Virus record (IMG/VR): IMGVR_UViG_3300002134_000143
Coordinates: 1-22,877 of that record
Reading direction: 5' to 3' (one strand)
Origin: a virus
Length of the DNA stretch: 22,877 nucleotides
Every line of letters begins with the position of its first letter. Within the stretch, counting starts at the first letter, position 1. Under the pieces are notes generated by a model, which was not told where the DNA came from, searched no databases, and saw nothing but the letters and a program-made list of their open reading frames with translations. Both the position numbers and the translations under genes were made by a program. Positions 3,683 through 22,810 of this stretch are shown here, piece by piece.

Positions 3683-4768
3683 ATGGCGAAAAAACAAAGC
3701 AAATCACTAACAGAAGCTGTATCCGCAGAACTTAAAAAAGGGTTTAACCTCAATAAGTTTAAAGAGCAGAAATTGCTGAGTAAAAATGTTCGCTTTAAAG
3801 ACCAGAAATGGATCCCATTATCCCCGGCATTTCAAGAGATCACCTCTATACCGGGGATCCCAATGGGACACATAACTATGCTAAGAGGCCATTCCGATAC
3901 AGGGAAGTCTACAGCATTATTAGAGGCAGCAGTATCGGCTCAAAAAGCCGGAATACTACCAGTATTCATTACTACAGAGATGAAGTGGAACTGGGAACAT
4001 GCTGTCCAGATGGGTTTACAAGTAGAACAAACAGTAGATGAAGATACCGGAGAAGTCTTAGACTATGGAGGATTCTTTATTTACGTAGACAGGGAGACTA
4101 TACACACAATAGAAGATGTAGCGGCTTTCATACTAGACCTGATAGACGAGCAAAAGAAAGGAGCATTACCTTACGACTTACTCTTCTTATGGGATTCAAT
4201 CGGATCAGTACCTTGCGAATTATCAGTACGTTCTAATAAGAACAATAATGAATGGAACGCAGGAGCAATGTCTACACAATTCGGTAACGGAGTTAATCAA
4301 CGTATCGTAATGTCGAGAAAAGAGTCCTCTCCTTATACTAACTCATTAGTAGTTGTAAACAAGGTGTGGACACAGAAAGCAGAATCACCAATGGGACAGC
4401 CGAAACTTATGAATAAGGGAGGTTTTGCTATGTGGTATGACGCAACGTTTGTAGTCACCTTTGGAAACATTATGAATGCCGGCACATCTAAGATTAAAGC
4501 AATCAAAGACGGTAAGCAGGTAGAATTCGCTAAGAGAACAAATCTCCAGATAGATAAGAATCATATCAACGGTATAACAACTAGAGGTAAGATTATTATG
4601 ACACCTCACGGTTTCATTCTAGATGAAGATAAAGATCTTAAGAATTACAAAGCAGCACACGCAGCAGAATGGGCAGCAATACTAGGAGGAGGAGACTTCG
4701 AGATAGTAGTAGAGCAAGCAGAAGAAGGCGATGCAGCACCAATACCAACTGAAAACGACCCAGGATAG
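3683..4768 (+). CDS. uvsX: UvsX/RecA-like recombinase
   Basis: This 361-residue ATPase forms filaments on single-stranded DNA for strand exchange and recombination-dependent replication. The Walker A loop is GHSDTGKS at residues 69-76, the following strand is ILPVFITTEMKW with the catalytic-type Glu, and Walker B is YDLLFLWDSIG with Asp171. Downstream come a RecA-like L1/L2 region (NNNEWNAGAMSTQFGNGVNQ, then TNSLVVVNKVW) and a C-terminal part with ISO-type beta strands. The order and length match T4 UvsX (about 390) better than bacterial RecA. It lies eight bases after the SSB gene with no promoter between. The acidic C-terminus (VEQAEEGDAAPIP) may regulate DNA binding, as in RecA; that is inference. 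Confidence 0.9.
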   Translation: MAKKQSKSLTEAVSAELKKGFNLNKFKEQKLLSKNVRFKDQKWIPLSPAFQEITSIPGIPMGHITMLRGHSDTGKSTALLEAAVSAQKAGILPVFITTEMKWNWEHAVQMGLQVEQTVDEDTGEVLDYGGFFIYVDRETIHTIEDVAAFILDLIDEQKKGALPYDLLFLWDSIGSVPCELSVRSNKNNNEWNAGAMSTQFGNGVNQRIVMSRKESSPYTNSLVVVNKVWTQKAESPMGQPKLMNKGGFAMWYDATFVVTFGNIMNAGTSKIKAIKDGKQVEFAKRTNLQIDKNHINGITTRGKIIMTPHGFILDEDKDLKNYKAAHAAEWAAILGGGDFEIVVEQAEEGDAAPIPTENDPG

Positions 4769-4795
4769 AACTAAACTCTAAATTAAGTTGAAAGG

Positions 4796-4819
4796 CCCTT
4801 GCTTATGCAGGGGTTTTTT
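4796..4819 (+). terminator. intrinsic terminator after uvsX, overlapping a promoter
   Basis: A 7-bp stem (CCCTTGC at 4796-4802 with GCAGGGG at 4807-4813, one G-T wobble), loop TTAT, then six T at 4814-4819. Its left arm contains the TTG of promoter P3. Confidence 0.75.
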
Positions 4820-4829
4820 ATTATCTTTA
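4799..4829 (+). promoter_or_regulatory. Bacteroidota-type promoter P3 inside the uvsX terminator
   Basis: TTG at 4799-4801 lies in the left arm of the terminator hairpin. Then come 20 bases and TATCTTTA at 4822-4829. Only three bases separate the box from the ATG at 4833, so the mRNA would be leaderless or nearly so. A second AAGTTG at 4785-4790 is 31 bases from the box, which is too far to pair with it. Confidence 0.65.
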
Positions 4830-4832
4830 AGT

Positions 4833-5873
4833 ATGTCAACTAATCTAAGAGCTCTTCTTGCTACTGTTACAGAGCATGAATCCTCACCTGCAGTAGTACA
4901 GGAATTCCATTCACGAGTACTAATGATAGATGCTCTTAACCTATTCTTCAGAAACTTTGCTACAATTAATTTCTTAAATAAAGAAGGAATTCCTATCGGA
5001 GGTATGGCCGGGTTTATAAGATCACTAGGGTCCTTGATACAGTTAGTACAGCCAACAGGAGTGTATGTTATCTTTGACGGAGTAGGATCTTCGAACAATA
5101 GAAAAAACCTCTTACCGGAATATAAGTCAAACCGCGGAATAACTAGGATAACAAACTGGGACACCTATGATAATATTGAAGAAGAAGGAGAGTCTAAAGT
5201 AGACCAGATAACACGTCTAATCCACTATTTACAATGTCTACCAGTAAAGACAGGAATGATAGATAAGGCAGAGGCTGACGATATGATAGCTTACATGGCG
5301 AACACCCTCCCACATACTCACAACTCAGACGTAATAATAGTATCCTCAGACAAAGACTATCTGCAGCTGGTCAGTAATAAGGTAACAGTCTATAGGCCTA
5401 TAGGTAAGAAATTTTACAAACAGAAAGAAGTAGCAGAGGAATTCGGAATACATTCAGACAACTTCATACTATACAAAACCTTATTAGGAGATAAATCAGA
5501 TGCAATATCGGGAATTAAGGGACTAGGCCCGAAAACACTTCTAAAGAGGTTCCCGGAATTAGTAAAACATTCACTAACTCTAGAAGACATCTTTGAGATA
5601 TCAGAAGCTAAATTAACACAGCATAAAATCTATGCTCAAATACTACAAGGGGAACAGGTTATAAGAAACTCCTACAAGTTGATGGACCTCCGAAACCCGA
5701 TATTGGACGATAGGCAGATAAAGTACATCGAAGAATTAATACAGGAAGAGAATAATCCATTTCATAGAAAAGAGTTTCTAGAGATGTACCACCAGGACGG
5801 AGTAGATCATTTTATAAAGAATATAGAAGGGTGGGTAACTGATACTTTTTTTAAGTTGGGAAACTTAAGATAA
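4833..5873 (+). CDS. rnh: 5'-3' flap exonuclease, T4 RNase H/FEN family
   Basis: This 346-residue nuclease removes RNA primers and 5' flaps from lagging-strand fragments. Family motifs in order are VLMIDALNLFFRNF (residues 29-42, first metal-binding Asp33), VIFDG, KAEADDMIAYMA (acidic pair), VSSDKDYLQLV, and the helix-three-turn-helix LLGDKSDAISGIKGLGPK that grips the DNA backbone. Length is close to T4 RNase H (305). A TTG at 4788 would lengthen the frame, but it would translate through the terminator hairpin and lies upstream of the promoter box, so I use the ATG at 4833. The first 28 residues are not part of the catalytic core. The gene stands between recombinase and helicase, consistent with lagging-strand work. 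Confidence 0.88.
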   Translation: MSTNLRALLATVTEHESSPAVVQEFHSRVLMIDALNLFFRNFATINFLNKEGIPIGGMAGFIRSLGSLIQLVQPTGVYVIFDGVGSSNNRKNLLPEYKSNRGITRITNWDTYDNIEEEGESKVDQITRLIHYLQCLPVKTGMIDKAEADDMIAYMANTLPHTHNSDVIIVSSDKDYLQLVSNKVTVYRPIGKKFYKQKEVAEEFGIHSDNFILYKTLLGDKSDAISGIKGLGPKTLLKRFPELVKHSLTLEDIFEISEAKLTQHKIYAQILQGEQVIRNSYKLMDLRNPILDDRQIKYIEELIQEENNPFHRKEFLEMYHQDGVDHFIKNIEGWVTDTFFKLGNLR

Positions 5874-9330: not shown

Positions 9331-12285
9331 ATGAAAAAGTATTTGATTAATTTGCTGCTATATATGTTACCGTTTGTAGCATCTGCACAAAATACAAGTT
9401 GGTTTGAGTTAAGAGTAGAATTCGGTAGATATATTTTCTCTGGCGGAAATGTATATTCAAACGATCAATCAATTTTAGTTAAACAAGGTACTGATACACT
9501 ATATTACGAAACCTACTCCTCAACTAATCCTAGTACTTATAGATACAATATTATAAATTGTGATACTGGTGATATTAAAGTAATACTTAAAAGTGCTGCC
9601 AGTAAGTGGTGGGATAATCAAAACCCATCTCCTGTTGTATGGTTACGTAATTCAACTCAAGATACATTTGTATATATAGAAGCTGATGAAACCGGACTAT
9701 TCTCAGGTTCTTACCCAAATTTTTCATACGATACAACTGTTAATATGTTATCACAACCTCCACCAGTTGCGGGTTGTATGGATTCAACTTCATCATCTTA
9801 TAATAGTAATGCTAATATTAGTAATGGTCAATGTAAATATCCTGTACACTTTGCAGTTGATATGAACTCATACCCTGATACATTTTCTCAAGTTTATGTA
9901 AGTGGTCAATTTAATAGCTGGAGTGGTATTGCTGATTCATTATCAGATTCTGATAGTAATGGTATTTGGACTGGTACTATAGATATCCTAAATAATCCAG
10001 GTTGGTTATGGAAGTATTCGGTTGATAATTGGTCAGACCAAGAGTTACCACCAAATATGCAAAATAATCAAAATCCATACGCACAATGTTTCTTACTTGA
10101 TGCTTATGGATTTACTAATAGAAATTTAATTGTAAACGGAGACTCGGTAGTATTAGATACTAATTGTTGGGAAAAATGTTTAGATTGTGCAGACATTATC
10201 GGATGTACCGATAGTACTTCAAATGAGTTCAACCCATGGGCTACTGTTAGTGATGGGCTATGTACCGGTGACCCTGCCGCATCTCTTAATTGTTCTTCCA
10301 ACCAAACTTATATAGATGTACAATTCACCCCTGATACCTATGGCGGGGAATCGAGTTGGATTGTTTACGATGACAACGGAGCAGTTTATACTGCATCCCA
10401 AGGTACATTCTCAGGCAAACCCCAAGGTGTACCTATCTCACATTATATGTGTGTTGATACAAACGTACTAATAGATATTGTAATTAGCGATAGTTATGGT
10501 GATGGTTTAAATGGTACTCTTTATGGCGGTTCAGTAGATGGGGACTTAAAAGTATATGATTGTTCAGGTAATCTTTTATGGGCATTATCCGATACTATCC
10601 CAAATGGAAACTTTGGATACCAATTCACCTCACCTCAGTTTAGTACTGGTGGTATATGTTCATCTGGTAGTTCAGATGTATATGGGTGTATGAATCCGTT
10701 CTCAACCACATATAACCCAAGTGCTACAATAGACACAGGCTCTTGTGGAGCTCCACGAATAGTAGGATGTATTGATACATCAGCATTTAATTATATAGAT
10801 ACCGCTAACACCAGCGAAATAATGACTGGTAACTACACTCTAAAAATTTACGATGGTGCTGCTAATGGTTGGGGTGGTACTTGGTTAGGTATCAAACAAG
10901 GTAGTAACTTATCTCCTCAATATAAAATGGGTCCTAATGATGGTTATAATCAAACATTTGATGTACCTTTAAACATATACGAACCAATTGATTTATATTT
11001 GTTTACAACGACTCAATCTCAAAACTCAATCGCTCAAGTAGCATATACTTTATATGGACCAGAGGGTGATACTATTGTAGATGTCCTATATTGGGGAGCA
11101 ACTACATTACAATTCCCTATAATTCAAAGAGTAGACTCACAACCTACATTCGGAGATGTATGCATTGAAAAAGTATTCGGATGTACAGATTCAACTTCAT
11201 TTAATTACGATTCACTAGCAAATACAAACGATGGGAATTGTATCCCTTACATTTACGGATGTATGAATCCATTATCATTTAACTATAATCCAAACGCAAA
11301 TACTCCTGATACATGTATAGCAATTAAAGTAGGATGTACTGATTCAACGATGTGGAATTATGACCCAACCGCCAACACATCAGGTACTTGTATACCTTAT
11401 ATTTACGGTTGTACGGACTCAACCTCATTTAATTATAATCCACTAGCAAATACGGATGATAGTTCATGTATCCCTGTAATTTACGGTTGTACAGACCCAA
11501 CTTCCTTTAATTATAATCCATCTGCAAACACAGAAAACGGTTCATGTATCCCCAAAGTATATGGTTGTATTGATTCAACAATGTGGAATTATAACCCATT
11601 AGCTAACACTGATAACGGAAGCTGCATCCCTTATATTTACGGATGTATGGATCCTGGTTCATTTAACTATAACCCACTAGCAAATACAAACCAAGTTTCA
11701 GCTACCGACTTTTCAAACCCATGTATTCCTACCATCTACGGCTGCACTGATTCAACTGCCCTAAATTATGATCCGAATGCAAATACCGACAACGGAACAT
11801 GTATACCCCCAATAGTCGGATGCACAGACCCAACAGCTTACAACTACAATCCAGACGCAAACGTACCAGATTCTACAAGCTGTTTATATGATGCAGGATG
11901 TATTGACGGCCCAGGAAATCCATATTGGCTAAACGATCCTTGCTATGCTTGGGTAATCGATGTTGATAACTACTGCTGTACTAACTCCTGGGATCCTGAT
12001 TGTCAAGCATTGTATGATTATTGTGCGATTGCAAATAACCTTCTCAATATCGATGAAATTGGATTTAACAGTATTATCGTCTATCCAAACCCGACTAAAG
12101 ATTTTTTAAATATTAAAACTAACCTAAATATTACATATACCTTATATGACTTTACAGGTAAGGTACTTATTGAAAATTCCAAAGAGAGGGTACTTGATAT
12201 ATCATCATTGCCAAACAGTATTTACTTCCTATCTATCAAACACCATGATAAAATATTTAATAAAAGAATTATAAAAGAGGATTAA
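9331..12285 (+). CDS. exported Cys-repeat protein with a C-terminal type IX secretion sorting domain
   Basis: This 984-residue protein begins with a signal peptide (MKKYLINLLLYMLPFVASAQ). A CBM48/E-set-like beta domain follows around residues 190-240 (VYVSGQFNSWSG ... WTGTIDI), with other beta-rich stretches (SDSYGDGLNGTLYGG, YDGAANGWGGTW). About thirteen copies of a roughly 24-residue motif of the form GCTDSTSFNYNPLANTDDGSC occur, nine in tandem at about residues 617-851. Each usually has two cysteines, so disulfide-stabilised turns are likely. The last 70 residues form a T9SS type A sorting domain: VYPNPTKDFLNIKT (Tyr918-Pro921), YDFTGKVL, LDISSLPNSIYFLSI and a basic end. In Bacteroidota such domains direct export across the outer membrane and surface attachment. 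Glycine codons at 9421-10020 are mostly GGT (11 of 14), unlike the GGA-rich helicase gene, which suggests acquisition from a host. The substrate or partner is unknown. Confidence 0.85.
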   Translation: MKKYLINLLLYMLPFVASAQNTSWFELRVEFGRYIFSGGNVYSNDQSILVKQGTDTLYYETYSSTNPSTYRYNIINCDTGDIKVILKSAASKWWDNQNPSPVVWLRNSTQDTFVYIEADETGLFSGSYPNFSYDTTVNMLSQPPPVAGCMDSTSSSYNSNANISNGQCKYPVHFAVDMNSYPDTFSQVYVSGQFNSWSGIADSLSDSDSNGIWTGTIDILNNPGWLWKYSVDNWSDQELPPNMQNNQNPYAQCFLLDAYGFTNRNLIVNGDSVVLDTNCWEKCLDCADIIGCTDSTSNEFNPWATVSDGLCTGDPAASLNCSSNQTYIDVQFTPDTYGGESSWIVYDDNGAVYTASQGTFSGKPQGVPISHYMCVDTNVLIDIVISDSYGDGLNGTLYGGSVDGDLKVYDCSGNLLWALSDTIPNGNFGYQFTSPQFSTGGICSSGSSDVYGCMNPFSTTYNPSATIDTGSCGAPRIVGCIDTSAFNYIDTANTSEIMTGNYTLKIYDGAANGWGGTWLGIKQGSNLSPQYKMGPNDGYNQTFDVPLNIYEPIDLYLFTTTQSQNSIAQVAYTLYGPEGDTIVDVLYWGATTLQFPIIQRVDSQPTFGDVCIEKVFGCTDSTSFNYDSLANTNDGNCIPYIYGCMNPLSFNYNPNANTPDTCIAIKVGCTDSTMWNYDPTANTSGTCIPYIYGCTDSTSFNYNPLANTDDSSCIPVIYGCTDPTSFNYNPSANTENGSCIPKVYGCIDSTMWNYNPLANTDNGSCIPYIYGCMDPGSFNYNPLANTNQVSATDFSNPCIPTIYGCTDSTALNYDPNANTDNGTCIPPIVGCTDPTAYNYNPDANVPDSTSCLYDAGCIDGPGNPYWLNDPCYAWVIDVDNYCCTNSWDPDCQALYDYCAIANNLLNIDEIGFNSIIVYPNPTKDFLNIKTNLNITYTLYDFTGKVLIENSKERVLDISSLPNSIYFLSIKHHDKIFNKRIIKED
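11179..11883 (+). repeat. nine tandem copies of a ~24-residue Cys-containing repeat
   Basis: Within the exported protein, units starting with GCTD, GCMN, GCID or GCMD and ending with a Cys follow each other every 69-90 bases, with FNYNP and LANT as the inner constants. Linkers such as IPYIYG recur between units. One copy (near 11644-11720) carries a short insertion before its second Cys. The nucleotide sequence is less conserved than the peptide, so the array is old or under selection at protein level. Confidence 0.85.
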
Positions 12286-15900: not shown

Positions 15901-16818
15901 ATGTCAGAAGAGGTAAACAAATCAATAGGTGATGAAAACCTAGGAGCATCTGCAAACGCTAGCGCTGGAACAGAAGTAACAGACACATCTGTAGCAGCAG
16001 GAGCTGAAGCTAATGTAGAAGTACACGCAGGTGTAGAAAACACAAATCAAATTGGAGATGTAACTATCTCTCAAGAAGCACACGCAGAAGCTGAAGTTCA
16101 TGCCGAAGCAGGAGCAGAAGCAGGCTTTGATGGTAGAAATGCTAAAGTAGAAGCTGGAGCAGAAGTTGGAACATCGGTAGAAGTTGGAGTATCTAACTCA
16201 GTAGAATATGGCGGTGTAACAAACACAACCGAAGTTCATGCCGGAGCACAAGCAAATGCTGGAGTATCCGTTGGTGGACAAGTTGGAATGGATGGAGCAG
16301 AAGGACACGCAGGAGCAGTAGCTGGCGCATCAGTAGGTGTAGGCGCATCAACTGGGACATACGATGAAAGTGGAAATGGTGCAGAAGCAGGAGCAGGTGT
16401 ATCGGTTGGAGTACAAGCTGGCGGTAGTGTTGGCGGTGGTGCAACGATGGATGATGGTGTTGCAACCGTTGGAGTTGATGGTAAACTTGCCCTCTTAGTT
16501 GGAGTTGATGTAGACCTTTCAGTAAGTGTAGATACTAAACCAGCACAAGAAGCAGCTCAGAAACTAGCAGAAGAAACTGCAGAAAAACTTAGATTAGAAG
16601 AAAATGCTAAAGCAGCCCAAAAGTTATTAGATGATGCAGCCGCAGAAACAAAAAGACAAACAGATGCAGCCGCAGCAGAATTACAAAGACAAAAAGACAA
16701 TGCCGCAAGAGAATTAAAAAAGCAGGCAGATGATGCAGCAGAAGCTTTAAGATTAAAAGATGCAGCAGACGCTTTAAAGAAAGCCGGTAAGAAAGCTAAT
16801 CCAAAAAACTGGTTCTAA
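15901..16818 (+). CDS. Ala/Gly/Val-rich repetitive protein with C-terminal coiled coil
   Basis: This 305-residue protein has no signal peptide or membrane helix. Residues 1-205 are a low-complexity beta-prone region in which short units such as VHAEAGAEAG, VEVGVSNSVE, VSVGGQVGMDGAEG and ASVGVGAS recur. Alternating small and Val residues suggest stacked beta turns or a fibre. From about residue 210 the sequence changes to an alanine-rich coiled coil (AQKLAEETAEKLRLEE, KRQTDAAAAELQRQKD) ending KKANPKNWF. Such a chain could form a trimeric fibre or a filament attached through its coil. I know of no function. It sits between a spanin-like and a holin-like gene, 5 bases after the former, so it may be a late gene for envelope or virion. 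Low complexity makes distant homology unreliable. Confidence 0.7.
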   Translation: MSEEVNKSIGDENLGASANASAGTEVTDTSVAAGAEANVEVHAGVENTNQIGDVTISQEAHAEAEVHAEAGAEAGFDGRNAKVEAGAEVGTSVEVGVSNSVEYGGVTNTTEVHAGAQANAGVSVGGQVGMDGAEGHAGAVAGASVGVGASTGTYDESGNGAEAGAGVSVGVQAGGSVGGGATMDDGVATVGVDGKLALLVGVDVDLSVSVDTKPAQEAAQKLAEETAEKLRLEENAKAAQKLLDDAAAETKRQTDAAAAELQRQKDNAARELKKQADDAAEALRLKDAADALKKAGKKANPKNWF

Positions 16819-17125: not shown

Positions 17126-17156
17126 TTGCACTCTCCGTATTTTTGTACTATATTTC
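17126..17156 (+). promoter_or_regulatory. Bacteroidota-type promoter for the membrane coiled-coil gene
   Basis: AAGTTG with TTG at 17126-17128, 20 bases, then TATATTTC at 17149-17156. Seven bases separate the box from the ATG at 17164, so the transcript is probably leaderless or has only a few bases of leader. Confidence 0.72.
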
Positions 17157-18320: not shown

Positions 18321-18351
18321 TTGCTATATTGAACTAATTAAGTTATCTTTA
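18321..18351 (+). promoter_or_regulatory. Bacteroidota-type promoter for queF
   Basis: AAGTTG with TTG at 18321-18323, 20 bases, then TATCTTTA at 18344-18351, followed by a 29-base AT-rich leader before the queF ATG. I see no preQ1 riboswitch-like stem in this leader. Confidence 0.72.
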
Positions 18352-18380: not shown

Positions 18381-19301
18381 ATGCAAGAACACAACAAAAA
18401 TCAAGAAGCAGTGATAGCTATTGCTGGGAAACATCTAGGACAAGTAGGAGGAGCAGGGTACAGCGATCAGTACAACCCAGACCTACTAGTAGCAATTCCT
18501 AGAAATCTAAACAGAGAAGCTTACGGTATCGACGAAGCAAATTTACCTTTTGTAGGAAGCGATGTCTGGAATGCTTACGAAGTATCCGCTATTACAGAAA
18601 CAGGAAGACCAGTAGTAGGTATGTTAAAGATAGTATACCCCTCAGACTCCCCTTTACACGTAGAGTCTAAATCTATAAAGCTGTATTTAAACTCCTTTAA
18701 TATGACAAGACTGGGGAAAACAGCAAAAGAGTGTATGTCCTTGGTAGAAGAGAGGGTAGTTAAAGACCTGAGTACTGCACTTCATACAGAAGTAGCTGTA
18801 AGATTCTTCGATACTGATTTCGGACCTCAAGCAGACTTTGGAAAAGAGTATATAAACATAAGTCGATTAACAGACTTAGACGAGGTGGAATTTAACGTAT
18901 TCCAATCAGACGCAAACCAACTAAAAAGTGTAGATGAAGAAGTTTCAGATACGGTAATAAAAGTACATTCAGATCTCTTAAGATCTAACTGTAGAGTAAC
19001 AAATCAACCGGATTGGGGTGATGTGTACATACATATGGAAGGAGTAAAAGAGCCAGATTACGCTTCTATTGCAAAGTACATAGTATCTCATAGACAGGTA
19101 TCTCACTTCCATGAAGAGATTGTAGAAATGATATTTACACATCTTACTGAAGCTTTTAATCCTAACAAGTTAATGGTATGTGCTCTATATACAAGAAGAG
19201 GAGGATTAGATATTAACCCTATCAGAGCTACTCATCAAGATATGATCCCAGCAGCCTTTATAGGAGTTGAGTTTAGAAATCGAAAAACACTTAGACAGTA
19301 A
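18381..19301 (+). CDS. queF: NADPH-dependent 7-cyano-7-deazaguanine reductase, long (bimodular) QueF
   Basis: QueF reduces the nitrile of preQ0 to the aminomethyl group of preQ1 with two NADPH. The 306-residue length fits the long type (E. coli, 282). Motifs in order: VESKSIKLYLNSF with substrate-binding Glu95, SNCRVTNQPDWGDVYI with nucleophile Cys204 and Asp211 (the Cys to Asp spacing of seven equals Cys190/Asp197 of E. coli), SHFHEEIVEMIF with His244-Glu245, and YTRRGGLDINPIRA. All catalytic residues are present, so it should be active. The N-terminal half is a duplicated, degenerate T-fold domain, as usual for this type. In the window queC and queD follow, so the phage makes preQ1 or a preQ1-derived product. 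Having queF separates it from phages that stop at preQ0. Confidence 0.93.
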   Translation: MQEHNKNQEAVIAIAGKHLGQVGGAGYSDQYNPDLLVAIPRNLNREAYGIDEANLPFVGSDVWNAYEVSAITETGRPVVGMLKIVYPSDSPLHVESKSIKLYLNSFNMTRLGKTAKECMSLVEERVVKDLSTALHTEVAVRFFDTDFGPQADFGKEYINISRLTDLDEVEFNVFQSDANQLKSVDEEVSDTVIKVHSDLLRSNCRVTNQPDWGDVYIHMEGVKEPDYASIAKYIVSHRQVSHFHEEIVEMIFTHLTEAFNPNKLMVCALYTRRGGLDINPIRATHQDMIPAAFIGVEFRNRKTLRQ

Positions 19302-19310
19302 AACATAAAG

Positions 19311-19341
19311 TTGCGATATAGAAAAATTGTTCGTATATTTA
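19311..19341 (+). promoter_or_regulatory. Bacteroidota-type promoter for the 19345 gene cluster
   Basis: AAGTTG with TTG at 19311-19313, 20 bases ending GTTCG, then TATATTTA at 19334-19341. The ATG at 19345 is three bases after the box, the same gap as at 4829-4833, so the mRNA is probably leaderless. Confidence 0.72.
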
Positions 19342-19344
19342 GGT

Positions 19345-19617
19345 ATGGAGAAAAAGAAATATGTCTATGTGCCCAAAGTATACGAGCAACGAACTGTATA
19401 TGACTTAGAAATGCAAGACGATGACGGGAGTATTAGTGTATGGAGATATGATAAGAAGAAAAACCCATACGGACCTTATCAGACAACTACAAAATATCCA
19501 ATAGGTCATAATTTTAATCCGGAAGCAAAAATTCCAAAAAGTAAACAGAAATACGTAAACCCAAAAACGGGAAAAGAAGTAAGTTACGCCCGAGCAAAGA
19601 ACCTCGGACTTATATAA
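19345..19617 (+). CDS. small basic hypothetical protein
   Basis: From the ATG at 19345 the product is 90 residues; an upstream TTG at 19327 is inside the promoter and is rejected. The protein is rich in Lys and Tyr (MEKKKYVYVPKVYEQ, KSKQKYVNPKTGKEVSYARA) with an acidic patch (MQDDDGSIS). The end KTGKEVSYARAKNLGLI could be a short nucleic-acid-binding or capsid-associated tail, but I recognise no family. There are no cysteines, signal peptide or membrane segment. It is the first gene of a tight cluster with the resolvase-like nuclease six bases downstream. Confidence 0.6.
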   Translation: MEKKKYVYVPKVYEQRTVYDLEMQDDDGSISVWRYDKKKNPYGPYQTTTKYPIGHNFNPEAKIPKSKQKYVNPKTGKEVSYARAKNLGLI

Positions 19618-19623
19618 AAACAT

Positions 19624-20055
19624 ATGATAATACTAGGAGTAATAACAGTAGCCCTTGTAGCTGCACTGGTTAATCTAGGGCTCTCCCTACGCGAAGCTAA
19701 AAGTCATATAAGAGAGTTAGAAGAGAGTTTTGCCTTGGAGAGAACCAAGATTAGAAAAGATGCACAGTTTAGATCTTCGGCAGTGAATTGGGGGAAAACA
19801 ATTGAGCATTTTGTACCGTTTATGACAGAATTTCCAATACCGCCGGAAGATGTAGTATTTTTAGGAATGCCTATAGACTACGTAGGGTTTACAAACACCG
19901 GAAGTAAGACTAAATGCGAAGTACACTTTGTAGAAGTTAAATCAGGAAGTTCTTTCTTAATGGGTAAGCAGAAAAATATAAAAAAAGCTATACAGGAAGG
20001 AAGAGTTTACTGGCATGAAGTAGCAGTAGAAAGTAACGCAGAAAGAGAAAAATAA
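19624..20055 (+). CDS. membrane-anchored Holliday junction resolvase-like nuclease (PD-(D/E)XK)
   Basis: This 143-residue protein starts with a membrane helix (MIILGVITVALVAALVNLGL, residues 1-20) and a short coiled coil (residues 22-46). The remainder fits the predicted Endonuc_Holl-type PD-(D/E)XK nucleases: NWGKTIEHFVPF with Glu61, FLGMPIDYVGF with Asp85, HFVEVKSG with Glu104 and Lys106, and MGKQKNIKKAI with Gln116. The Asp...Glu-x-Lys arrangement would bind the catalytic metal. Such nucleases may resolve branched recombination intermediates made by UvsX before packaging. The N-terminal anchor would hold this activity at the membrane. It overlaps the next gene by one base (TAATG), so translation is probably coupled. 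Enzyme class is a motif inference. Confidence 0.75.
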   Translation: MIILGVITVALVAALVNLGLSLREAKSHIRELEESFALERTKIRKDAQFRSSAVNWGKTIEHFVPFMTEFPIPPEDVVFLGMPIDYVGFTNTGSKTKCEVHFVEVKSGSSFLMGKQKNIKKAIQEGRVYWHEVAVESNAEREK

Positions 20056-20279
20056 TGACTTTAAAAAAACAATCTATAAGAAGAATCGAGGATGTTACCT
20101 TAAACGGAAAAGTTACTACTAAAGAAGAGCTTATCTTCGTAAGTACCGGCTGGGCAGAGAAGGAGGTAATATTGTTTAAGAAGGTATTATCGCAAGGAGG
20201 AGTATGTAGAATAGGCGGAGATCTACTTAAGGTAGATAAGGTAGAGCTGATAAGACCTATCAGCGATAGAAACATTTAA
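20055..20279 (+). CDS. small hypothetical protein coupled to the nuclease gene
   Basis: This 74-residue protein starts within the stop of the nuclease gene (one-base overlap). It looks like a compact beta protein: SIRRIEDVTLNGKVTT, ELIFVSTGW, EVILFKKVL, VCRIGGDLLKVDKVELIRPI. There is one Cys and no membrane segment. I do not recognise it. Coupling suggests that it acts with the nuclease, for example as a specificity or inhibitory subunit, but this is inferred from position alone. Confidence 0.6.
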   Translation: MTLKKQSIRRIEDVTLNGKVTTKEELIFVSTGWAEKEVILFKKVLSQGGVCRIGGDLLKVDKVELIRPISDRNI

Positions 20280-20284
20280 CCAGT

Positions 20285-20512
20285 ATGAAGCTACTTACAG
20301 AATACAACAACCTAACCGAGCAGGAAAAAGAAGAACTGCTTAACCTACTCTTCGCAGACGGATACACCTCAGATCTAGAACTTATGAGAGATTCCGAAAA
20401 AAATGTACTAGATCACGAGTGGGATACGATAATTAAAAAACTCGCAGGAGCTAGGCTAAGAATGACTCTAGAAGAAGAAAAAATAATAAAATCTGTTGCA
20501 AAAAGACTTTAA
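20285..20512 (+). CDS. small acidic helical hypothetical protein
   Basis: This 75-residue, mostly helical and charged protein (LTEQEKEELLNLLFADGY, HEWDTIIKKLAGARLRM, EEEKIIKSVAKRL) has no cysteine, signal or membrane segment. It follows the previous gene by five bases. It may be a small regulator or inhibitor, as such proteins are common in phage early operons, but nothing in the sequence proves it. The 3' end of the gene holds the TTG of the queC promoter. Confidence 0.55.
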   Translation: MKLLTEYNNLTEQEKEELLNLLFADGYTSDLELMRDSEKNVLDHEWDTIIKKLAGARLRMTLEEEKIIKSVAKRL

Positions 20513-20526
20513 AGTTCGTATATTAT
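20496..20526 (+). promoter_or_regulatory. Bacteroidota-type promoter for queC
   Basis: TTG at 20496-20498 (preceded by CTG rather than AAG), 20 bases ending GTTCG, then TATATTAT at 20519-20526. The queC ATG is 14 bases downstream. The box region repeats that of the SSB promoter. Confidence 0.72.
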
Positions 20527-20540
20527 AGTAATAAAAAAAG

Positions 20541-21407
20541 ATGGATAACCAGAAAAAACACGTAGTATTATCGCTTTCGGGCGGGATGGATAGTAGCACT
20601 CTGCTACTTAAATGTCTAAAAGAGTTTGACACAGTAACAGCTTTATCATTCGACTATGGACAAAAACATAGAGTTGAATTAGAAAGAGCTCAATCATTAG
20701 TAGATTATTTAAATAATAAGTGTAGCGATGAAGAGTGTTACGGAGGTTGTAGAATTAAATACCAAGTTATTAAACTAGATGGATTAGTTAACCTATTAGA
20801 TTCAGCTTTAGTAACAGGAGGAGATGATGTACCTGAAGGTCATTATGCAGAAGATAATATGAAAGCAACAGTTGTTCCTAACAGAAACAAAATATTTGCT
20901 TCTATTACCCAAGCCGTTGCTCTATCAGTAGCAAATAGGACAGGAGAGAATTGTGATATTGCAATGGGTATCCACGCAGGTGATCATTCAATTTATCCTG
21001 ATTGCAGACAGGAATTTAGAGATGCAGATGATGAAGCTTTTAGACTAGGTAATTGGGATGCCGAAAGAGTACATTATTGGACACCTTACTTATTAGGAGA
21101 TAAATTCACTATCCTACAAGATGGGGAAGTATTATGTGAAGAACTAGGTTTAGATTTTGATGAAGTTTATAAAAGAACAATGACATCTTATAAACCAATT
21201 CATATTCATGGTGGAGGGGGAGATGGATGGTATGCCGATTATAAATCAGCCTCTTCAGTAGAACGTATTGAAGCTTTTATGGCATTAGGTAGACCTGATC
21301 CATCACAATATGCTGATGAGAAGGGGGTTGTAGATTATGAAACAGCTAGAATTTACGTAGAACAGGTTCTATCAGAATATGAAAAAGAACAATTAAATAT
21401 AAAATAA
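20541..21407 (+). CDS. queC: 7-cyano-7-deazaguanine (preQ0) synthase QueC, lacking the usual zinc cysteines
   Basis: QueC converts carboxy-deazaguanine, ammonia and ATP to preQ0. This 288-residue protein has the PP-loop SGGMDSS at 13-19, FDYGQKHRVELE at 37-48, VVPNRNKIF near 111, and IAMGIHAGDHSIYPDCRQEF, the QueC signature. Typical QueC proteins end in a zinc-binding cluster of four cysteines. Here the matching region (TSYKP ... GDGWYADYKSASSVERIEAF, residues 215-246) has none, and no cysteine occurs after Cys199. An insertion at residues 59-70 (NKCSDEECYGGC) holds Cys61, Cys66 and Cys70 instead. The rest is intact, so activity is likely. It has its own promoter and is followed by a membrane protein, a thioredoxin and queD. 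Confidence 0.9.
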   Translation: MDNQKKHVVLSLSGGMDSSTLLLKCLKEFDTVTALSFDYGQKHRVELERAQSLVDYLNNKCSDEECYGGCRIKYQVIKLDGLVNLLDSALVTGGDDVPEGHYAEDNMKATVVPNRNKIFASITQAVALSVANRTGENCDIAMGIHAGDHSIYPDCRQEFRDADDEAFRLGNWDAERVHYWTPYLLGDKFTILQDGEVLCEELGLDFDEVYKRTMTSYKPIHIHGGGGDGWYADYKSASSVERIEAFMALGRPDPSQYADEKGVVDYETARIYVEQVLSEYEKEQLNIK

Positions 21408-21411
21408 TATT

Positions 21412-21648
21412 ATGAGCGACGGAATAACAGAAGCAAGACGAGGTACTTACTTTGATAACTCAACAACTAGAGGAAGTAAACCTAAACAGGAGGAACCTTC
21501 GAAAAGTACTACGGCTCGAGGCTGGTTTTTAAAATATGGACATTGGAGTTTCTTTACACTTTCCGTATTAGAAGCTCTTGCAGGGGATGGACTTATAGCA
21601 ATCGCTTTAATGATACTTTTTTACAACTACCAAACAGGTAAAAGATAA
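21412..21648 (+). CDS. small hypothetical protein with a hydrophobic C-terminal half
   Basis: This 78-residue protein starts four bases after queC. The first 40 residues are polar and basic (MSDGITEARRGTYFDNSTTR, SKPKQEEPSKSTT). The second half is hydrophobic: WSFFTLSVLEALAGDG and LIAIALMILFYNYQ, enough for one long or two short membrane segments, ending TGKR. I do not recognise a family. It may be an accessory membrane protein of the operon; no link with queuosine chemistry can be shown. Confidence 0.6.
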   Translation: MSDGITEARRGTYFDNSTTRGSKPKQEEPSKSTTARGWFLKYGHWSFFTLSVLEALAGDGLIAIALMILFYNYQTGKR

Positions 21649-21651
21649 TAC

Positions 21652-21903
21652 ATGAATAAATTAATATACATATCAGCCACATGGTGCGGACCTTGTAAGA
21701 CTTTTGGACCGATAATGGAACAAGTAGCTAACTCAGGAGTATCTGTAACGAAGTTGGATGCAGACAGAGACCAGCAAGCATTAGCTGACTACCAAGTACG
21801 AAGCGTACCAGCAGTAATTAAGGTAGACGGATCAGGAAAAATGATCGATAAGTTTATAGGAGTTAGATCAATGCAGGAAGTATTAAATTTCTATAATGGG
21901 TAG
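21652..21903 (+). CDS. trxA: thioredoxin (canonical active site)
   Basis: This 83-residue cytoplasmic thioredoxin has the active site ATWCGPCKTFGP (Cys12, Cys15), the strand VSVTKLDADR and the cis-proline SVPAV. It is about 25 residues shorter than E. coli thioredoxin, lacking the first strand and helix, as in many phage versions. It can reduce the shuttle cysteines of the class II ribonucleotide reductase encoded at 7378. The stop overlaps the start of queD by eight bases. It contrasts with the exported thioredoxin-fold protein at 13624, which has lost both cysteines. Confidence 0.9.
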   Translation: MNKLIYISATWCGPCKTFGPIMEQVANSGVSVTKLDADRDQQALADYQVRSVPAVIKVDGSGKMIDKFIGVRSMQEVLNFYNG

Positions 21904-22363
21904 ATTCCAATCAACAAAGATATATGACGGCTTCAGCACCGTCTTTCGTCAATGGGATGCAGAAGGTACGCACTGCCAGAAACTACATGGATATGGCATT
22001 AGTTTTAAAGTAACTTTCGAAGGAGAGCTAGATCATAGAAACTGGATATTTGACTTCGGAGGTATGAAAAGAGCTAAAACTCTTATTGACGGGCTACAGC
22101 CTAAAGCTTGGATGGATTATATGTTCGATCATACCTTCCTAGTAGCAGAAGATGATCCGTTCAAGGAATCTTTCTTAGCAATGAATGTAGCGGGAGTAGC
22201 TCAAGTAAGAGTAGTTCCCGCAACAGGAGCTGAGAAGTTCGCAGAGTACCTGTACGGAAAGCTAAGCACCTTTATTAAAGAAGAAACCGAAGAAAGAGTA
22301 AAAATAATATCAGTCGAGTTCATGGAACACGGTAAAAATACAGCTCTCTACATTGCAGATTAG
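21896..22363 (+). CDS. queD: 6-carboxy-5,6,7,8-tetrahydropterin synthase-like QueD
   Basis: QueD converts dihydroneopterin triphosphate to carboxytetrahydropterin, the step before QueE. The 155-residue T-fold protein has VFRQWDAEGTHCQKLHGYG with nucleophile Cys27 and His31, followed by RNWIFDFGGMKRAK, MFDHTFLVAEDDPF (Asp78-His79 relay) and VEFMEHGKNTALY with the substrate Glu. In E. coli QueD the zinc ligands include LHGH; here the second His is Tyr33 and the first His of the fold is not obvious. I know this FRQW...HC...LHGY pattern from a QueD-like subfamily of proteobacteria, so it is probably functional with a different ligand set. The gene overlaps thioredoxin by eight bases. QueE and FolE are not in the window; the former would be needed to link QueD with QueC. 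Confidence 0.85.
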   Translation: MGRFQSTKIYDGFSTVFRQWDAEGTHCQKLHGYGISFKVTFEGELDHRNWIFDFGGMKRAKTLIDGLQPKAWMDYMFDHTFLVAEDDPFKESFLAMNVAGVAQVRVVPATGAEKFAEYLYGKLSTFIKEETEERVKIISVEFMEHGKNTALYIAD

Positions 22364-22366
22364 GTA

Positions 22367-22504
22367 ATGGAAAACGAAGACGATTGGGAAATGCAAGAAC
22401 CTAAAGACGGCTTCACAAAAGAAGATGAGAAGTACCTCTTTCGGATGTTACAAAACATGACTATACTCGGAGAAAAATCACTTAAAGATCGGAAAAAAAA
22501 CTAA
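22367..22504 (+). CDS. small acidic ORF of 45 residues
   Basis: An ATG three bases after the queD stop opens a frame of 45 codons ending at the TAA at 22502-22504, just before a terminator hairpin. The product is very acidic at the N-terminus (MENEDDWEMQEPKDGF) and basic at the end (KSLKDRKKN). The close spacing and the terminator directly after its stop make it a credible gene, though too short for any family assignment. Confidence 0.5.
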   Translation: MENEDDWEMQEPKDGFTKEDEKYLFRMLQNMTILGEKSLKDRKKN

Positions 22505-22507
22505 AAA

Positions 22508-22532
22508 AGGCTTGCTTCTGCAGGCCTTTCTT
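22508..22532 (+). terminator. intrinsic terminator after the queC-queD operon, overlapping a promoter
   Basis: An 8-bp stem (AGGCTTGC at 22508-22515 with GCAGGCCT at 22520-22527, one G-T wobble), extendable by two A-T pairs, loop TTCT, then TTTCTT-like tail (22527-22532). The inner sequence TTGCTTnTGCAGG is shared with the terminator after uvsX. Confidence 0.72.
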
Positions 22533-22542
22533 CGTATCTTTA
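22512..22542 (+). promoter_or_regulatory. Bacteroidota-type promoter inside the queD-operon terminator
   Basis: TTG at 22512-22514 lies in the left arm of the hairpin. Twenty bases follow, ending CTTCG, then TATCTTTA at 22535-22542. The next ATG is 19 bases downstream. The architecture copies the uvsX/exonuclease junction. Confidence 0.65.
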
Positions 22543-22561: not shown

Positions 22562-22810
22562 ATGACAGATCAAACAAACTACACCGAATTCGAAGCCCTT
22601 CAAGAGTTTAATCATTTTCAAACTTTAGTAAATACTAAAGAGTATGTTACTAAAGATGAATATAATTTCATCATTGCTTATGATGCAACAGAAAAAACTA
22701 ATTTCTGCTACGTAGGAGAGTATAGTAAATACGGTGAGTATTTAAACTTACATGTTTATAGTGAGCATGATCATGAAAAACGTCAATACGAAATGGAGGT
22801 AGGGATTTAA
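22562..22810 (+). CDS. small acidic hypothetical protein
   Basis: This 82-residue acidic, Tyr- and Glu-rich protein (TDQTNYTEFEALQEFNHF, DEYNFIIAYDATEKTNF, GEYLNLHVYSEHDHEKRQ) has one Cys and no signal or membrane segment. It follows its own promoter with a 19-base leader. Alternating aromatic and polar residues in the centre suggest a small beta sheet. I do not recognise it. The next gene starts one base after its stop, so both share the operon. Confidence 0.6.
   Translation: MTDQTNYTEFEALQEFNHFQTLVNTKEYVTKDEYNFIIAYDATEKTNFCYVGEYSKYGEYLNLHVYSEHDHEKRQYEMEVGI

Follow-up and report, generated by a model that had tools for sequence, protein, structure and literature searches.

Does the DNA between the uvsX-like recombinase gene and the 5'-3' exonuclease gene of this virus end one transcript, begin the next, or do both with the same bases? 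An earlier note on the window (the whole stretch of 22,877 nucleotides analysed here) had described a composite at 4796-4829, in which the left arm of a terminator hairpin carries a promoter TTG and the T run is followed by TATCTTTA with a spacer of 20; all of these coordinates check. The features at this junction and at a second, similar site are as follows.

Signals at two junctions of the window

3683-4768, + strand: uvsX-like recombinase gene, upstream (PHROG 97 UvsX-like, E 1e-16)
4789-4820, + strand: terminator-like RNA hairpin 3' of uvsX (fold, terminator scan, covariation across 41 elements, homologous or analogous)
4796-4802, 4803-4806 and 4807-4813, + strand: GC core of this hairpin, CCCTTGC, loop TTAT and GCAGGGG
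4799-4802, + strand: -33 element TTG(C) within the left hairpin arm (TTG 4799-4801; TTGC common to the window sites)
4814-4819, + strand: T tract TTTTTT, directly 3' of the stem
4822-4829, + strand: -7 box, TATCTTTA, which directly follows the T tract (spacing; F. psychrophilum box position)
4833-5873, + strand: 5'-3' exonuclease gene, downstream (Pfam 5_3_exonuc_N)
22506-22529, + strand: second hairpin, AAAGGCTTGC/TTCT/GCAGGCCTTT (fold, ORF position)
22512-22542, + strand: second composite promoter, TTG 22512-22514, N20, TATCTTTA 22535-22542

At the uvsX junction A/U pairs lengthen the GC core to a stem of 14 pairs reaching 4789-4820, with a folding energy of -19.3 kcal/mol (z -4.94) that none of 200 shuffles equals. 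The locus thus combines a stable GC-rich RNA hairpin, supported by the folds and by the covariation described below, with a U tract adjoining the stem on its 3' side. Together with the 4-nt loop and the position directly past a stop codon, this is the form of an intrinsic (Rho-independent) terminator, from which the composite differs by a conserved TTGC in the left arm, a fixed length and tract, and a -7 box placed 20 nt from the TTG.

On the promoter side, the TTG lies 30 nt 3' of the uvsX stop codon (4766-4768) and is separated from TATCTTTA by exactly 20 nt. In Flavobacterium psychrophilum, where 5.5% of the mRNAs lack a leader, the -7 box of primary-sigma promoters occupies -12 to -5 (PMC9723704). 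Placing the phage box in the same register predicts a start 4-5 nt past it, with A4833 or T4834 as the +1 of the exonuclease promoter. As the exonuclease ATG (4833) follows the end of the box by only 3 nt, a leaderless exonuclease mRNA is expected. The N-terminus of the exonuclease, MSTNLRA, is kept in relatives with synonymous changes.

The design was also said to recur at 22508-22542, and it does, again with a spacer of 20. The second hairpin (-15.5 kcal/mol, z -4.99; 0/200 shuffles as good) begins 2 nt past the stop codon (22502-22504) of a 45-aa ORF starting at 22367, its TTG lies 8 nt past that stop, and an ATG follows at 22562. The T tract is poorer in this copy (TTTCTTCG), the stem being adjoined by TTTCTT and not by the TTTTTT of the first. 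The distance of 20 bases given in the earlier note applies from the TTG to TATCTTTA, while the 13-mer core shared by the two copies is only 10 nt from the box. Within the window, TTGCNNNNGCAGG-N10-TANNTTTR matches the two composites and nothing else, and the reversed control is without a match. The shared 13-mer alone, with two mismatches allowed, is not significant (1.33 expected). What excludes chance is the geometry together with the pattern seen in relatives, not the 13-mer alone.

A promoter class of the window and phage immuto

Forward matches to TTG-N20-TAnnTTT number five in the window, all with TTGC and all with TAT[AC]TTT; at other spacings there are 0-3 sites. Three of the five are plain promoters of the same class without a hairpin:

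17126-17156, + strand: TTGC ... TATATTTC
18321-18351, + strand: TTGC ... TATCTTTA
19311-19341, + strand: TTGC ... TATATTTA, then GGTATG

With an ATG at 19345, a leaderless mRNA is predicted for the last of these as well. The nearest cultured relative, Flavobacterium phage vB_FspM_immuto (NC_055915; 65.6% identity of the UvsX/recombinase), has 36 forward-strand sites at spacing 20 compared with 0-9 at any other spacing, and the opposite strand is without a peak. We count about 30 such promoters in immuto, 6 of them composite, at 22069, 25489, 37295, 64499, 69174 and 69567 of NC_055915; about 30 of the 36 lack a hairpin. Genes with ATG at 16431, 20739 and 52406 of immuto show the same leaderless-type layout as those at 4833 and 19345.

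The consensus of the 41 sites of window and immuto is an A-rich upstream region, G-TTGC, T-T-C before TAT[AC]TTTA, and then RGTAT; C follows TTG in 27 of the 41, and T is favoured before the -7 box with or without a hairpin. In their -33 TTG, their -7 TAnnTTT and a spacing near 20 the sites thus agree with the primary-sigma promoter of Bacteroidota (TTG / TAnnTTTG; motifs SM1-3 of F. psychrophilum, PMC9723704), and the distance from box to start codon is compatible with a box at -12 to -5 (PMC9723704). Where the host consensus box closes with G, both composites of the window and 39 of the 41 sites have A; we hence describe the class as a phage variant working like the Bacteroidota primary-sigma promoter. 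It differs further in TTGC, in a spacing of exactly 20, in the A-rich upstream and RGTAT downstream sequences, and in the terminator built into the spacer at a subset of sites. A generic sigma-70 scan was uninformative, with promoter counts near those of shuffles; the right model is TTG-N20-TAnnTTTR.

Hairpins occur in 8 of the 41 promoters, compared with a mean of 2.0 and a maximum of 6 in 2000 spacer swaps, so that the sequence preferences of the promoter ease composite formation, yet explain only part of the composites.

Two immuto CDS, gp156 and gp148 (NC_055915 64499 and 66953; loci L170 and L246), begin exactly at the -33 TTG and are therefore likely annotation artefacts, a warning for annotators that a promoter TTG can be taken for a start codon. 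Positions 60900-76200 of NC_055915 (L170) hold a dense array of small genes, many with a near-identical upstream promoter (AAAAG-TTGC ... TATATTTA-GGTATCAATAATTAAAA), which looks like an early-gene region.

Recurrence and covariation in related phages

A scan of 80 UvsX-relative loci and the window, in which the hairpin was not imposed, found 13 distinct composites among 71 sites at spacing 20, compared with a single composite at the other 20 spacings, at 30, which is the same sequence reached via a second match. When viral contigs were searched with TTGC/GCAR, five T and the box fixed and the outer arms left free, 81 stretches matched at the correct geometry and 8 with the -7 box shifted by +3 nt. 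The three free outer positions are complementary (G-U included) in 38 of 40 distinct sequences of the former set, but in 1 of 4 of the latter. Among 63 composite instances 57 are without a spanning ORF, and their median position is 29 nt past a stop codon and 23 nt ahead of an ATG. Whole records carry 1-4 composites, on one strand only, and none of the reversed pattern. Of 38 records searched for an immuto-like major capsid protein, 9 have one, counting immuto itself, and most of the others are fragments. As far as sequence comparison can tell, the merged terminator-promoter is recurrent at dozens of junctions in related Flavobacterium-type phages.

A nucleotide search of the 81-bp region against cultured phages gave no convincing homologue. 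A variable-gap viral scan was discarded, protein-coding families being mixed in at gap 4, and two TATTTTTG-box matches of a genome scan, in MAGs titled Clostridiales and Actinomycetes, were taken as chance.

The outer stem pairs covary across 41 distinct aligned elements, many of them from related phages (GGC/GCC, AGC/GCT, GAG/CTC, CCC/GGG): 98.4% of cells are paired compared with 24-63% in slid controls, there are 29 double-change cells in the outer three pairs, and the covariation score of 0.338 (0.141 in shuffles) is reached by none of 500 shuffles. Since the scan patterns fix the inner stem TTGC/GCAR, independent covariation is confined to the outer pairs; one element with a perfect stem but no T tract (L047), under a mechanical ORF, was left out of the set. 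G-U pairs are frequent, the fourth pair, counted from the loop, being U-G in 31 of 41 elements and GU occurring 8 and 4 times at outer pairs, which argues for selection on an RNA hairpin rather than on a DNA dyad.

At the uvsX junction itself, relatives have a bare junction, a terminator only, a composite or a different structured RNA. In the UvsX tree (79 rows) eight loci with a composite, the window among them, cluster with support, and one further composite, that of L055, belongs to the sister group; near relatives carry a terminator alone or another structured RNA, and in most further relatives uvsX and the exonuclease gene abut. Judged from this distribution, the composite design is lineage-specific at the uvsX junction. 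For the group members L069 and L030 identity is 97.5-100% over the 40-nt element, compared with 76-82% for uvsX and 50-53% for the upstream spacer, and in L069 the element is conserved despite a different downstream gene. The element of L065 has diverged (77.5%), yet keeps hairpin, T run and spacing 20, and L055 has a spacing of 20 despite a loop shorter by one base. Recurrence, the fixed geometry and covariation thus bear out the conservation in related phages that the earlier note had set as a check.

In clades L053/L058-L061/L064 the terminator at the uvsX junction is a plain one and lacks the TTG. At L056, L062 and L063, and at NC_055915 46498, 104387 and 160359, the hairpin is kept and the -7 box is degenerate (TTTCTTTA, TATATTGA, TATATTAA, TATATTAT and TATCTTAA behind composite-like hairpins); here the terminator would be intact and the promoter decayed or weak, and not every such terminator is a promoter.

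In L067, L068, L070 and L071 a conserved RNA-like element of about 100 nt replaces the composite, from +20 to +125 of the uvsX stop. Its pairings GUCGAGG/CCUCGAC, CUUAC/GUAAG and ACUCUUGG/CCAAGAGU plus a U tract, in crossing order and followed by an ATG, would form a pseudoknot with terminator. A riboswitch-like leader is possible; the core of the element was found in 7 viral stretches, and Rfam gave no match to the element.

Readings of the composite and other genes of the window

We consider it highly probable that the composite is one bifunctional element of immuto-related phages, in which an intrinsic terminator hairpin and its U tract fill the spacer of a Bacteroidota-type promoter. If the hairpin simply ended the uvsX mRNA, TTG and TATCTTTA being incidental and the exonuclease gene being served by read-through or an upstream promoter, the plain terminators and degenerate boxes of relatives would be readily understood. 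This reading is nevertheless improbable: the distance from TTG to box is 20 in all strict composites, even with the shrunken loop of L055; box, RGTAT and spacer are conserved at 97.5-100% next to a flank at 50-53%; and plain promoters of identical form exist without hairpins. Still less probable is a promoter alone, regulated through the dyad as an operator bound by a protein, or as DNA extruded into a hairpin as for the phage N4 virion RNA polymerase, with the T run as promoter sequence. An inverted repeat at a fixed promoter position and the T preference before hairpin-free -7 boxes would fit, but the many immuto promoters without a hairpin (about 30/36) make it unnecessary for initiation, unlike in N4-type promoters. 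Moreover, the many G-U stem pairs suit RNA and spoil a DNA dyad, the stem varies freely (GGC, AGC, GAG, CCC, TCC, GTC) unlike an operator, and all composites lie just past stop codons.

The least probable of these alternatives is that a uvsX-exonuclease mRNA made by read-through is stabilised by the hairpin or cleaved in it, with no termination. The downstream gene does begin right next to the hairpin, read-through RNA could serve as its message, and the two genes abut in most relatives. However, a stem of at least 7 pairs with a 4-nt loop and 5-6 U is the standard form of an intrinsic terminator, and other phage junctions have a hairpin of this form on its own.

In the merged terminator-promoter the nascent SSB-uvsX mRNA would fold as CCCUUGC/UUAU/GCAGGGG and end in the U run, while host RNA polymerase with a primary-type sigma would read the left-arm TTGC and TATCTTTA on double-stranded DNA. 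Initiation at or beside A4833 would yield the leaderless exonuclease mRNA. The promoter preferences shown above (A-rich upstream, G-TTGC, T-rich before -7) already resemble half a terminator; such a promoter would need only a right arm GCARnnn, which may explain the recurrence with fixed geometry at many junctions. As hairpin, U tract, -33 and -7 elements share about 35 bp, a terminating and an initiating polymerase cannot occupy them together. The two activities would exclude each other in time, and the element would be a stop/restart node, not a pair of independent parts.

The earlier note had read the arrangement as isolating expression levels. The merger itself is strongly supported, isolation only in part: with the signals sharing about 35 bp, it is just as likely that the two activities are coupled, through occlusion, a roadblock or reinitiation in place, as that expression is insulated. 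RNA polymerase retained on DNA after termination can restart at a close promoter, as found with E. coli and T7-type polymerases, and the nearest phage terminator-promoter distance quoted is 14 bp (PMC6978380, PMC11347151). In those systems termination likewise adjoins a promoter, whereas here both signals share bases. That the polymerase releasing the SSB-uvsX RNA stays, captures sigma on the same 35 bp or so and restarts the next, often leaderless, mRNA seems unlikely to us; were it true, upstream transcription would feed downstream transcription rather than be isolated from it.

Searches of open-licence papers found no description of fused terminator-promoter elements, and while both halves are known, the recurrent fused form is apparently undescribed in that literature. 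This phage lineage would pack stop and start into the same 35 bp or so at many junctions, with promoter constraints inside a covarying hairpin, and the cultured phage and its host, Flavobacterium sp. LMO8, offer a natural test system for transcriptional interference and in-place reinitiation by recycled polymerase.

Two further regions of the window deserve mention. Positions 18381-22363 hold 7-deazaguanine pathway genes (GTP cyclohydrolase/QueF-like, QueC, PTPS/QueD-like), as in immuto, which additionally has dpdA; their presence suggests modified DNA. The 984-aa phage protein encoded at 9331-12285 starts with a hydrophobic, signal-peptide-like stretch and has a C-terminal type IX secretion sorting domain (Por_Secre_tail), so that this product is apparently sent out via the T9SS of the host.
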